This document shows positions 43,179 through 47,378 of a stretch of 64,000 bases of DNA, in pieces. Below the pieces are notes generated by a model. That model made no database searches and was not told the DNA's origin. It saw only the letters and a program-made list of their open reading frames with translations. Position numbers and translations under genes: made by a program. How positions within the stretch are numbered: the first letter of the stretch is position 1; every line of letters begins with the position of its first letter. Source of the stretch: Billgrantia pellis (lineage in GTDB: Bacteria; Pseudomonadota; Gammaproteobacteria; Pseudomonadales; Halomonadaceae); NCBI RefSeq assembly GCF_008297955.1, contig NZ_VTPY01000002.1:248001-312000 (forward strand), written 5' to 3'.

Positions 43179-43373
43179 GAACTCTCCTCGCGCGGCTCCC
43201 GGCGACGGCGGACAAATGACAAGGCTCGCCAGTGTAAGAATTCACGGGCGCAACGTCCATCGGCACGGTTGCCCGCAACGGGGCGTTCAGCAGAACGAAG
43301 ACATGCCAAAGGCGACGGGATTAGCATTTTTTCCTGAAAATCCAGGCACCGGGCACCAACATACACCACCGGA

Positions 43374-43402
43374 TTGACAACATGCGCCTTTCGTTCTAGC
43401 AT
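43374..43402 (+). promoter_or_regulatory. Sigma-70-type promoter of the metNIQ operon
   Basis: TTGACA (43374-43379) is a perfect -35 box, with TAGCAT (43397-43402) 17 bases on as a -10. Transcription would begin near 43409, ten bases before the aptamer. Confidence 0.65.
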
Positions 43403-43418
43403 TCGCCATCACATTTCA

Positions 43419-43514
43419 GGCGCCGATTTGTACCCGGATTGCGGGCGCCCACGTCGAAGGCCGCGGTGAACCCGCTTCACGGGCCGATGATGTGAAGTGC
43501 AGCTAAAAGGGTGT
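43419..43514 (+). promoter_or_regulatory. Candidate SAM-II-type riboswitch (pseudoknot aptamer) of metNIQ
   Basis: The leader has the SAM-II layout. Helix P1 pairs GGCGCC at 43419-43424 with GGCGCC at 43444-43449. Its loop (GATTTGTACCCGGATTGC) forms a pseudoknot with the 3' part: TTGC 43439-43442 with GCAG 43499-43502, and GTACCC 43430-43435 with GGGTGT 43509-43514. The conserved AGCTAAAAGGG is present at 43501-43511. Unlike the compact form, the J region contains an extra hairpin (GGCC, GTGAA, loop, TTCAC, GGCC at about 43459-43485). Methionine-uptake genes downstream support SAM sensing. Not tested by a covariance search. Confidence 0.75.
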
Positions 43515-43527
43515 GTCCAGCGTTGAT

Positions 43528-43553
43528 GGCCACCCGCCAGGGTGGCCTTTTTT
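43528..43553 (+). terminator. Intrinsic terminator in the metN leader
   Basis: GGCCACCC (43528-43535) pairs with GGGTGGCC (43540-43547) around GCCA and is followed by six T. Placed between aptamer and metN, it probably ends transcription when SAM is bound; an anti-terminator strand was not identified. Confidence 0.88.
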
Positions 43554-43607
43554 CGTTCCGGCTCCCCGCTGCCGCCCGCCCGGTGACGGCCCGTCACTGG
43601 AAGCCAG

Positions 43608-44696
43608 ATGATCACGCTACGCAACGTCTCCAAGACCTATCATCTCAGGGGCAGTCGAACCCGGCTCCCCTTCGCTTCGCGCCGCGATACGCCACCCCGC
43701 ACCATCGAGGCGCTCAGGAACGTCGACCTGCACGTGCCCCAGGGCAGCATCCATGGCGTCATTGGCCTCTCCGGCGCCGGCAAGTCGACACTGATCCGCT
43801 GCGTCAACCTGCTCGAGCGTCCCTCCTGCGGCAGCGTGGTGGTCGACGGTCAGGAGATGACCGATCTCACCGCCGCTCAGTTGAACCAGGCGCGTCATCG
43901 CATCGGCATGATCTTTCAGCACTTCAACCTGCTGACCACACGCAACGTGTTCGACAACGTTGCCCTGCCGCTGGAGCTGATGGGCCTGAAGCGCGCCGCC
44001 ATTCGCAAGCGCGTGCTGCCCCTGCTCGAACTCACCGGGCTTTCCGACAAGGCGCGCCAGTATCCGGCCCAGCTCTCCGGTGGCCAGAAGCAGCGTGTGG
44101 CCATCGCCCGAGCGCTGGCCAGCGAGCCCCGAGTGCTGCTTTGCGACGAGGCGACGTCGGCGCTGGACCCCCAGACCACCGGCTCGATCCTCACGCTGCT
44201 GCGCGACATCAACCAGACGCTCGGCCTGACCATTCTGTTGATCACTCACGAAATGGAAGTGGTGAAGTCGATCTGCCACCGTGTGAGCCTGATCTCAGAT
44301 GGCGAGCTGGTCGAGGAAGCCGATGTGGGCGATTTCTTCACCGCCCCGCGCACCCGACTCGGCCGCGAATTCCTCAACGATTTCCTTCAGCTCGAGCCGC
44401 CCAAGGCCTTGGTGGAACGCCTCGAGGAAATCCCGGGCGAGCGCACGCACCCGGTGGTGCGTCTGGCCTTTTCCGGCGATGCCGTCTCGACCCCGCTGAT
44501 CTCCCGCCTGGCCCGGGAGTGCGGCGTGGACGTGAGCATCCTGCAGGCCAAGGTGGAGTCGATCCAGGAGCGCACCCTGGGGTTGATGATTGCCGAACTG
44601 CTGGGCTCGCCCGAGCAGACCCGCCGGGCCATCGACTATCTCGAATCCCATGACCTGCACGTGGAGGTACTCGGCCATGTCCAGCGCAATGATTGA
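43608..44696 (+). CDS. metN: Methionine ABC transporter ATP-binding protein MetN
   Basis: The ATPase of the D/L-methionine importer. The 362-residue protein has Walker A GLSGAGKST, the Q-loop FQHFNLL, the ABC signature LSGGQKQRVAIARALA and Walker B VLLCDEATSALDP. The C-terminal 110 residues form the NIL domain that binds methionine and gives feedback inhibition. The start is 43608, 56 bases after the leader terminator. Residues 16-36 hold an insertion compared with E. coli MetN. Its 3' end overlaps metI by 20 bases. Confidence 0.96.
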   Translation: MITLRNVSKTYHLRGSRTRLPFASRRDTPPRTIEALRNVDLHVPQGSIHGVIGLSGAGKSTLIRCVNLLERPSCGSVVVDGQEMTDLTAAQLNQARHRIGMIFQHFNLLTTRNVFDNVALPLELMGLKRAAIRKRVLPLLELTGLSDKARQYPAQLSGGQKQRVAIARALASEPRVLLCDEATSALDPQTTGSILTLLRDINQTLGLTILLITHEMEVVKSICHRVSLISDGELVEEADVGDFFTAPRTRLGREFLNDFLQLEPPKALVERLEEIPGERTHPVVRLAFSGDAVSTPLISRLARECGVDVSILQAKVESIQERTLGLMIAELLGSPEQTRRAIDYLESHDLHVEVLGHVQRND

Positions 44697-45330
44697 TCTG
44701 ATCCTGCAGGCAACCCTGGATACGCTCTACATGGTCGCCGTCTCGGCCGTAGTGTCGGCAGCGCTCGGCGTGCCGCTGGGCGTGATGCTCTACGTCACTC
44801 GTCCGCGCCAGATCCTGGCGCGCCCGCTGCTTAATCAGGTACTGGGCATCGTGACCAACATTGGCCGCTCGATACCCTTCATCATCCTGATGGTGGCGAT
44901 CATTCCGTTTACCCGCCTGGTCGTGGGCACTTCGATCGGCACCAACGCCGCCATCGTACCGCTGACCCTCGCTGCCATCCCGTTCGTGGCGCGCCTGGTG
45001 GAAGGCGCACTCAACGAGATCCCGCCGGGCCTGGTAGAAGCCGCCCAGGCGATGGGCGCCACGCCGCACCAGATCATCGCCAAGGTACTGCTGCCGGAAG
45101 CTCGTGGCGGCATCATCACCGGCTTGACCATCACCGTAGTGACCCTGGTCAGCTATTCGGCCATGGCCGGCGCTGTGGGCGGCGGCGGGCTCGGCGACCT
45201 GGGTATCCGCTACGGCTACAACCGCTTCAATCCCACTGTGATGCTGATCACCGTGGCCATCCTGGTGGTCATGGTGCAGGGCTTCCAGAGCCTCGGCGAC
45301 TACCTGGTACGCAAATCGGACCGCAAGTGA
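44677..45330 (+). CDS. metI: Methionine ABC transporter permease MetI
   Basis: A 217-residue inner-membrane permease with five or six hydrophobic segments. The coupling loop EGALNEIPPGLVEAAQAMGA (54-73 from the middle of the frame) contacts MetN, and GAVGGGGLGDLGIRYGYNRF near the C-terminus is a MetI signature. The ATG at 44677 lies inside metN with GGAGG upstream, so the two are translationally coupled. metQ follows after 25 bases. Confidence 0.96.
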   Translation: MSSAMIDLILQATLDTLYMVAVSAVVSAALGVPLGVMLYVTRPRQILARPLLNQVLGIVTNIGRSIPFIILMVAIIPFTRLVVGTSIGTNAAIVPLTLAAIPFVARLVEGALNEIPPGLVEAAQAMGATPHQIIAKVLLPEARGGIITGLTITVVTLVSYSAMAGAVGGGGLGDLGIRYGYNRFNPTVMLITVAILVVMVQGFQSLGDYLVRKSDRK

Positions 45331-45355: not shown

Positions 45356-46171
45356 ATGCAAGCCAGCCTGACCCGCCTGTTCGGCGCCGCCGCTCTCGTC
45401 GGCGCCATCTTGATCGCCGGCTGCGGCGAGGACGACGGCGCCAGCGAGACCCGCTCGATCAAGGTCGGCACCATGTCCGGCCCGGAATCAGAGGTCATGG
45501 AAGTGGCGGTGCAGATCGCCAAGGATCGTTACGATCTCGAGGTCGAGATCGTTGAGTTCACCGACTACGTCTCACCCAACGCCGCGCTGGCCGACGGCAG
45601 TCTCGATGCCAACGCCTTCCAGCACGAGCCCTACCTGCAGAGCATGATCGACGACCGCGACTACGATCTGGCGGTGGCCGGGCATACCTTCGTTTATCCT
45701 ATCGGCGCCTACTCCGAAAAGCACGACAGCATTGAAGCGTTGCCCAACGGCGCCATCGTCGCCCTGCCCAACGACCCCACCAACGGCGGCCGCGCGATGA
45801 TCCTGATGCATAACGCCGGCCTGATCGAGCTGGACGACCACGAGAACCTCGAGGCCACCCCGGTCAACGTGGTGGAGAACCCGCATGACTTCCAGTTCCG
45901 CGAGATCGAGGCGGCCCAGCTCCCCCGCGTGCTGCAGGACGTCGACCTGGCCTTCATCAACAACACCTTCGCTCAGCCTGCCGGCTTGAGCCTGGACGAC
46001 GCTCTGCTCCGGGAAGGCCCCGAGTCCCCGTACGTCAACATCATTGCGGTGCGTGAGGGTGACCAGGATCGCGAGGAAATCCAGCAGTTGGTTTCCGCGT
46101 ATCAGAGCGATGAGGTGGCGGCCAAGGCGAAGGAGCTGTTCGACGGTGCCGCCGTGCCCGGATGGGAATAG
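45356..46171 (+). CDS. metQ: Methionine-binding lipoprotein MetQ
   Basis: The substrate-binding component, a 271-residue NlpA-family lipoprotein. The signal peptide ends in the lipobox LIAGC (Cys23), so the mature protein is anchored in the inner membrane. Family segments include IKVGTMSGPESEVM, EFTDYVSPNAALADGSLDAN, NAFQHEPYLQ and IALPNDPTNGGRAM-like text at about residue 140 (VALPNDPTNGGRA). AAGGAG stands before the ATG. It ends the metNIQ operon and is followed by a terminator. Confidence 0.96.
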   Translation: MQASLTRLFGAAALVGAILIAGCGEDDGASETRSIKVGTMSGPESEVMEVAVQIAKDRYDLEVEIVEFTDYVSPNAALADGSLDANAFQHEPYLQSMIDDRDYDLAVAGHTFVYPIGAYSEKHDSIEALPNGAIVALPNDPTNGGRAMILMHNAGLIELDDHENLEATPVNVVENPHDFQFREIEAAQLPRVLQDVDLAFINNTFAQPAGLSLDDALLREGPESPYVNIIAVREGDQDREEIQQLVSAYQSDEVAAKAKELFDGAAVPGWE

Positions 46172-47207: not shown

Positions 47208-47284
47208 TGGTAGGACCAAGCGGATTTGAACCGCTGACCTCCACGATGTCAACGTGGCGCTCTAACCAACTGAGCTATGGTCCT
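47208..47284 (-). tRNA. tRNA-Val (anticodon GAC), copy downstream
   Basis: On the minus strand a 77-base cloverleaf runs from AGGACC to GGTCCTACCA, with CCA encoded. The anticodon arm is CCACG-TTGACAT-CGTGG, so the anticodon is GAC (valine). The T-stem is AGCGG/CCGCT. It is the second gene of a tandem pair. Confidence 0.97.
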
Positions 47285-47301: not shown

Positions 47302-47378
47302 TGGTAGGACCAGGCGGATTTGAACCGCCGACCTCCACGATGTCAACGTGGCGCTCTAACCAACTGAGCTATGGTCCT
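47302..47378 (-). tRNA. tRNA-Val (anticodon GAC), copy upstream
   Basis: A 77-base cloverleaf identical to its neighbour in the acceptor, D and anticodon arms. The T-stem is GGCGG/CCGCC, which differs from the other copy at both bases of one pair, preserving pairing. CCA is encoded. Seventeen bases separate the two genes. Confidence 0.97.

Follow-up and report, generated by a model that had tools for sequence, protein, structure and literature searches.

We analysed a stretch of 64,000 nucleotides from Billgrantia pellis (contig NZ_VTPY01000002.1, positions 248,001 to 312,000), hereafter called the window, to which all coordinates refer. Methionine importer genes had been proposed downstream of the leader by an initial annotation of this DNA, and domain and family models identified them as metN, metI and metQ.

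43608 to 44696, + strand: metN, methionine ABC transporter ATPase (ABC_tran and NIL domains)
44668 to 45330, + strand: metI, permease (NF008049, above its cut-off)
45356 to 46171, + strand: metQ, NlpA-type lipoprotein (TIGR00363, above its cut-off)

The best NCBIfam model for metN, TIGR02314 (MetN), scored 456.7 bits, under its cut-off of 499.7. A search with PF01340 for MetJ, the usual SAM-dependent repressor of methionine genes in enterobacteria, was positive in the E. coli control but gave nothing in this genome. Elsewhere in the window, two near-identical adjacent tRNA genes lie on the - strand (47211-47284 and 47305-47378).

The leader of these genes (43374-43553) contains a promoter, a pseudoknot and a terminator, in the order and at the places that the initial annotation had given. 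Structural counterparts in SAM-V follow the available text of the SAM-V structure paper (PMC6061858).

43374 to 43402, + strand: sigma-70-type promoter TTGACA-17-TAGCAT (10 of 12 matches; 0.1 expected by chance, from shuffles)
43419 to 43424, + strand: 5' strand of P1, GGCGCC (from the sequence; covariation of the outer P1 pairs in 293 related elements)
43425 to 43429, + strand: GAUUU, predicted to supply the third strand of the triplex that binds SAM (unchanged in all 34 genus leaders; role by homology with SAM-V, PMC6061858)
43430 to 43435, + strand: 5' strand of P2a, GUACCC (partner 43509-43514; 94.6% of cells paired in the 34-leader alignment)
43438 to 43443, + strand: 5' strand of P2b, A-UUGC-G (register from PMC6061858, backed by pair counts in related elements)
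43444 to 43449, + strand: 3' strand of P1, GGCGCC (sequence and leader alignment)
43450 to 43493, + strand: P3, inserted hairpin of 44 nt (basal stem 43451-43456 with 43488-43493; comparative evidence)
43494 to 43498, + strand: GAAGU joining segment (GAARU in 34 of 34 genus leaders)
43500 to 43507, + strand: 3' strand of P2b and predicted binding site, C-A-GC-U-AAA (GCUAAA invariant in the 34 genus leaders)
43509 to 43514, + strand: 3' strand of P2a, GGGUGU (its GGGUG doubles as the 5' strand of the antiterminator)
43509 to 43535, + strand: antiterminator (43509-43513 with 43531-43535, G43515-C43530, 43517-43519 with 43527-43529; -12.0 kcal/mol)
43528 to 43553, + strand: intrinsic terminator (arms 43528-43535 with 43540-43547, then T6; -18.8 kcal/mol)

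The promoter ends 16 bases upstream of P1, whose six pairs (43419-43424 with 43444-43449, GGCGCC on both strands) are as first described. The 19-nt loop of P1 begins with GAUUU and ends with AUUGC, which is the SAM-II signature, and P1 is followed by the P3 hairpin, GAAGU, the 3' strand GCAGCUAAAAGGGUGU, a brief spacer and the strong terminator. The conserved AGCTAAAAGGG, which had been pointed out before, is indeed present at 43501-43511. The metN start codon lies 94 nt 3' of P2a, with the terminator in between. Directly before this start codon, a second hairpin was observed at 43560-43607 in the window and in same-genus relatives (e.g., GCCACC-UCG-GGUGGC in L014, L016, and L025); it might touch the ribosome-binding site.

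A BLAST search with the leader over 58 genomes gave matches in 35, all from the same genus (35 of its 37 genomes, with this one counted), whereas the 21 genomes from other families gave none. The whole aptamer was present in 34 of the 35 matched leaders, with MetN adjoining in all 34, and the remaining match (L035) shares a 3' piece only and lies near another gene. Throughout the 34 leaders the core letters are invariant bar a few positions, including the P1 loop motif GAUUU...MUUGC except for its M (A43438 is A or C). Besides, the loop forms an H-type pseudoknot, P2, with the 3' GCUAA strand (43439-43443 with 43500-43506). According to the SAM-V structure paper, SAM-II binds SAM virtually as SAM-V does, and U43427, U43428 and U43429 are counterparts of the ligand-site uridines of both classes (PMC6061858). 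By the same mapping, the ligand-site equivalents (U43427-U43429, U43439, U43440, U43504, and A43505-A43507) are invariant in the 34 leaders, the exception being A43438. The class assignment of the initial annotation stands, together with the insert, the terminator and the metNIQ context.

We also weighed whether the leader might be a SAM-II relative with a changed ligand (SAH or another adenosyl compound) that acts on metNIQ by another logic. A ligand change has been reported for a variant SAM aptamer class (according to the available part of PMC10853860), and the insert is an unusual architecture. However, the ligand-site equivalents, including both sulfonium-facing uridines, are unchanged, and the genes behind related elements (metN, metX, metZ, metK, and metF) serve methionine and SAM supply; a changed ligand is therefore improbable.

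Rfam 15 at gathering thresholds reported nothing in 43374-43553. When the Rfam models were applied permissively, a check that the initial annotation had recommended, SAM-II (RF00521) was the top match and on the right strand (43410-43476, + strand, E 0.0075 in 501 bases), but its 22.3 bits lay under the cut-off of 36, and the SAM-V and SAM-II-long-loop models gave no match up to E 10 in 43200-43700. The RF00521 match forces the 3' half of the model into P3, so the insert is not placed by the model. In our reading, the insert accounts for the score below the cut-off: L091, a compact sister that shares the platform, scored 36.9 bits, although several compact relatives are also under the cut-off (L107, 33.9; L109, 32.0; L110, 31.8). 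Matches to isrD, snoZ168, Phe_leader and RNAI were all under their cut-offs and were taken as terminator or chance matches.

The leader shares with SAM-II (RF00521, SAM_alpha) P1, the GAUUU third strand, MUUGC, GCUAA and the pseudoknot P2 with P2a, as well as a terminator-type platform and methionine genes, but differs from it by the P3 hairpin of 23 to 44 nt between P1 and the 3' strand of P2. With SAM-V it shares the pseudoknot and the ligand site, and also the order of a P3 stem-loop right after P1, stacked A residues and the P2 strand (PMC6061858). In contrast, P3 of SAM-V has 3 bp and is longer here, P2a of SAM-V has 2 bp and reaches up to 6 bp here (PMC6061858), and SAM-V acts by translational control with a short P2a over the ribosome-binding site, whereas a terminator is found here. 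Membership in SAM-V was rejected, with no Rfam match up to E 10 in 43200-43700. SAM-II with long loops (RF01726; PMC2864571, as far as its available text describes it) is likewise a SAM-II variant with extra length, but there it is the P1 loop that is longer, and the consensus has a short joining segment; this membership was also rejected, with no local match and a best match in the genome of 16.6 bits, elsewhere. RF02424, discussed below, gave no same-strand match at its gathering threshold, and the genome was without a match at E 0.001.

The pairing of P2b required correction. UUGC at 43439-43442 had been paired with GCAG at 43499-43502, a register that proved out of step in 293 distinct elements, in which C43442:43499 is standard in only 51% and U43440:43501 in 87%. 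P2 of SAM-V runs from U20:A48 to C24:G43 with U47 bulged (PMC6061858). The register fitting here is U43439-A43506 and U43440-A43505, U43504 unpaired, G43441-C43503 and C43442-G43502, A43501 unpaired, and G43443-C43500. P2b thus fits the SAM-II/SAM-V register, UUGC with GC[U]AA plus G43443-C43500. The last of these pairs is standard in 98.6% of the 293 elements (GC 282, GU 4, AU 2, UG 1) and unpaired in 4 (GG 3, GA 1), and it matches a pair predicted by Barrick and Breaker from mutual information (according to the available text of PMC2258182). In the same elements, for which P1 pairing was not a selection criterion, the fifth pair of P1 was formed in all (GC 276, CG 9, AU 6, UA 2) compared with 91% in shuffles, and the sixth in 77% compared with 40%.

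Covariation among relatives, the other check that had been recommended, was strong in the insert but sparse in P2a, with few replacements in the last P2b pair. Within the genus, P1 and P2b are nearly invariant and hence uninformative on covariation; P2b is invariant there and P2a nearly so, and one pair of alignment columns (16 with 98) is unpairable in 6 of the 34 leaders. The P2a pairing that had been claimed, 43430-43435 with 43509-43514 (GUACCC/GGGUGU), is present, and at the family level at least 4 bp of P2a form in 79% of 24 distinct combinations versus 27% with shuffled partners. This support consists of few changes, namely GTTCCC/GGGAAT in L102, in which the 3' strand is displaced by one position, and otherwise single-sided ones. 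Outside the family, P2a of at least 4 bp was not above shuffled partners (33% versus 30%, and 16% versus 32%), and we rejected P2a as a universal SAM-II helix. Because it does no better than shuffled partners elsewhere, the long P2a is a feature of the metN type and not of SAM-II at large.

The inserted hairpin that had been seen after P1 was borne out by comparison, but its size is 44 nt (43450-43493) and not about 27. From the window sequence alone P3 would not stand out, since 18 of 200 shuffles fold as well. Across the 34 same-genus metN leaders, the insert varies in sequence and in length (23 to 44 nt), and yet in each of the 34 it forms a hairpin along its whole length, from P1 to GAARU. 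All eight basal pairs of P3 are changed on both sides, with 89% of cells paired. The whole-structure covariation score was 0.210, a value that none of 500 shuffles reached (0.106), and slid controls gave 0.011 to 0.080; the count of pairs changed on both sides, one of five measures, was reached by 31 of 500 shuffles and is less telling. On this comparative evidence P3 is real, and judging from the alignment it is a spacer whose fold is kept and whose sequence is not. P3 takes the place of some four bases of the joining segment seen in compact forms, without altering the A-rich GAARU. The corresponding letters of SAM-V rest against the minor groove of P1, after a P3 of 3 bp (PMC6061858), and by homology GAAGU would take the place of this A-rich strand. 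The same paper describes P3 as absent from SAM-II; P3 here sits at the P3 position of SAM-V, and our alignments suggest that SAM-II is not always without it.

At the end of P3, ATG ATG TGA could form a Met-Met mini-gene before the terminator, and we therefore asked whether the leader might be an attenuator that senses translation of a short methionine peptide and not a ligand-binding RNA. The ATG pair is missing there in relatives such as L002, L005 and L009, but all 34 leaders share the same pseudoknot letters. We rejected the Met-Met leader peptide, the ATGs of which are not conserved, and give such an attenuator almost no credence.

The strong terminator that had been noted (43528-43547 plus six T) was confirmed, none of 200 shuffles being as stable. 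The segment 43503-43536, which precedes its 3' arm, folds by pairing GGGUG with CACCC and an inner CCA with UGG (-12.0 kcal/mol; 4 of 200 shuffles as stable). This antiterminator excludes both P2a and the terminator, because it is built from the 5' arm of the terminator and the 3' strand of P2a. Therefore, SAM binding should end transcription, which would make the leader an OFF switch. With -12.0 kcal/mol against -18.8 for the terminator, the antiterminator can win only kinetically.

The two competing structures are conserved. Among 73 distinct metN leaders of the family, anchored strictly, a T-run of at least 4 was present in 65, and complementary GGYG and CRCC were found in 65 of these 65. 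When 61 of the leaders were folded singly under a loose anchor (L015, L061 and L100 being anchored at GCAAA, which made their joining length wrong), the antiterminator hairpin formed; L091 and L093, in which the loop side has diverged, use different inner pairs. The remaining 8 of the 73 leaders are without a T-run. Its loss was observed in L031, L032, L033, L083 and L086; besides, L104 and L105 (genomes G221 and G095, same genus) keep P1, and their pseudoknot strand and terminator are gone. Since 8 of 73 leaders have no T-run and L104 and L105 keep little beyond P1, the switch is dispensable.

Taken together, we consider it very probable that a SAM-II riboswitch with an added P3 shuts off metNIQ by transcription termination at high SAM. 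The RNA would start just 5' of P1, and P1 would fold first, followed by P3. SAM would then be seated in a triplex of GAUUU and the P2b helix (UUGC with GC[U]AA), and the bound SAM would fix the 3' strand and hence P2a (GUACCC with GGGUGU). With GGGUG so occupied, the terminator would form and the transcript would end in the U-run, whereas at low SAM GGGUG would pair with CACCC of the 5' arm of the terminator, forming the antiterminator and allowing read-through into metNIQ. P3, located at the base of P1, probably keeps the joining segment in order and may postpone the emergence of the 3' strand of P2 during transcription.

The decay in near relatives (T-run lost in L031, L032 and L033; pseudoknot lost in L104 and L105) could also suit a relic aptamer with a constitutive terminator, to which SAM is irrelevant in this strain. 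The aptamer and platform letters of the window, however, equal the family consensus while P3 diverges, which suggests purifying selection and leaves a relic very unlikely. Another reading takes a terminated, trans-acting sRNA as the main product, the riboswitch being secondary and the highly conserved CCAGCGUUGAUGG serving as its seed. Indeed, 43514-43527 is almost unchanged within the family, and terminated SAM-II leaders build up as sRNAs in Sinorhizobium (according to the available text of PMC9373788). Against this, the conservation is explained by double use in antiterminator and terminator, and the diverged leaders L091, L093, L034, L084 and L087 still form GG(G)UG:CACC(C), with different inner pairs. 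We regard the sRNA as an unlikely main product, though the least unlikely of the alternatives, and keep the SAM-responsive terminator as the preferred reading.

To see how far such leaders extend, we used a covariance model (R1) built from the 34 genus leaders, the E-values of which are rough. R1 matched 211 of 250 family genomes, in 20 of 24 genera; among these, the loci inspected in G212 (L103, L141 and L142) are of a tandem compact type and not metN leaders, and G221 and G095 contribute decayed copies. The metN leaders of other genera occur in the P3 form (e.g., L076-L090) and in a compact form with a joining segment of 9 to 11 nt, the latter in six genera with one or two genomes each (L091, L093, L095, L097, L099, L100 and L102). 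Because the compact L091, L093, L097 and L099 share the downstream platform, P3 is a module open to gain and loss. In genus g25, L094 and L098 have a short P3, with a joining segment of 17 to 19 nt, and the same platform; no MetN match was found in the stretch fetched for them.

The view that SAM-II is known mainly from alphaproteobacteria, which the initial annotation had repeated, is outdated: R1 found elements resembling SAM-II in 117 of the 274 genomes searched across the same class (own included), and SAM-II outside the alpha-proteobacteria has already been published, as the available texts report (PMC1273637; PMC2258182). We counted 84 of the class loci, a part of the matches listed that was drawn from their better-scoring end with long ones added, and 82 of them parse as SAM-II, L108 and L152 being left unparsed. 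Methionine genes follow in 75 of the 82 (metZ 56, metK 10, metN 6, metF 2, metX 1). The compact form prevails (71 of 82), and P3, taken as a joining segment of at least 20 nt, occurs in 4 of 6 metN leaders versus 4 of 76 others (Fisher p 0.0006) in this sample from a metN-trained model. Four of the longer weak matches in the class (L137-L140, E 0.001 to 0.007) gave no SAM-II on parsing and were left out.

Several families of the class also have compact SAM-II right before metK, the gene for SAM synthetase (L121, L130, L143-L146, L154, L164, L177 and L201); in L121 and L130, a SAH riboswitch is present as well, farther downstream on that strand. Tandem compact SAM-II was observed in the same genus (L036, L038-L045, L103, L141, L142, L351, L352 and L357) and in other families (L115, L117 and L353); tandem SAM-II has already been published, with 44 cases (in the available text of PMC9481103). 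In these tandems the first aptamer carries a terminator, and pairing of GCUAAAGCG with CGCUUUAGC would give the matching antiterminator; the second precedes a start codon, with a CUCCCC...GGGGA pairing. The genes behind the tandems are not recognisable as methionine genes: a 72-aa open reading frame in L039 had no Pfam match, and two in L352 had no Pfam, NCBIfam or PADLOC match. The tandem-associated open reading frames adjoin a methyltransferase-HNH fusion protein.

Furthermore, we scanned named genomes with a pattern that by design admits only joining segments of 22 nt or more, and obtained at least 117 matches. Among the matches listed, the next gene was metX in 71, metZ in 21 and metN in 8, and 17 had no gene assignment. 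The 80 titles among them are mostly those of beta-proteobacteria (Burkholderia, Paraburkholderia, Caballeronia, Cupriavidus, Ralstonia, Limnohabitans and others), with some Legionellaceae, to which the six listed metN matches with a title belong. P3-type SAM-II is thus also present in Burkholderiales and Legionellaceae. Two of the 17 without a gene are not of the P3 type, L275 being compact with a second GCTAAAG downstream and L293 having no P1. The independent tests of the listed matches are the genes (100 of 117) and the fold of the insert: 110 of 114 distinct inserts listed fold with at least 4 pairs, at a mean z of -2.9 versus letter shuffles.

At Rfam gathering thresholds, none of 18 P3 loci was called SAM-II, and 3 were called RF02424, "Burkholderia sRNA" (Bp2_287), with 87 to 102 bits in L235, L252 and L297, on the strand opposite to metZ. 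In the class, weaker RF02424 matches occurred in 41 of 369 genomes, none above the cut-off. Among 30 such loci fetched (L203-L232, below the cut-off), 29 are antisense to a SAM-II motif and none has the same sense, L213 being without the motif. The reverse complement of the RF02424 consensus is the SAM-II core with the P3 hairpin. RF02424 is thus the antisense strand of P3-type SAM-II leaders; it covers such leaders of metZ, but was modelled on the opposite strand, and it should probably be re-stranded or merged. The authors of Bp2_287 had themselves proposed a cis-acting methionine element (according to the available text of PMC3521395).

Leyn et al. in 2014 described metXZ, from 34 beta-proteobacterial metX and metZ leaders, as a pseudoknotted element with a terminator, and their available text places SAM_alpha only in Rhizobiales and Rhodobacterales (PMC4239095). 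Their element has a pseudoknot and a terminator before metX or metZ, where P3 SAM-II is also found, but it was set apart from SAM_alpha there and introduced as a novel putative RNA element (PMC4239095). Based on the lineage, the genes, the pseudoknot and the terminator as described, metXZ probably is P3 SAM-II.

Searches of the open-licence text of PubMed Central, figures and supplements excluded, turned up no account of a P3 hairpin in SAM-II, of a SAM-II leader before metN in Halomonas, or of metXZ being SAM-II; SAM-II with long loops has already been published (in the available text of PMC2864571), and a consensus drawing with an optional insertion at the P3 site could exist in published figures.

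We think it likely that P3 SAM-II is a large, poorly annotated beta- and gamma-proteobacterial branch of the SAM-II/SAM-V superfamily that controls metX, metZ and metN, includes metXZ and RF02424, and bridges SAM-II (long P2a and terminator) and SAM-V (P3). If these leaders are SAM-II with P3, a mis-stranded Rfam family could be corrected, and the SAM-II model could be rebuilt to find the missing members. The P3 variant would also link SAM-II and SAM-V, which have hitherto been treated as separate classes.
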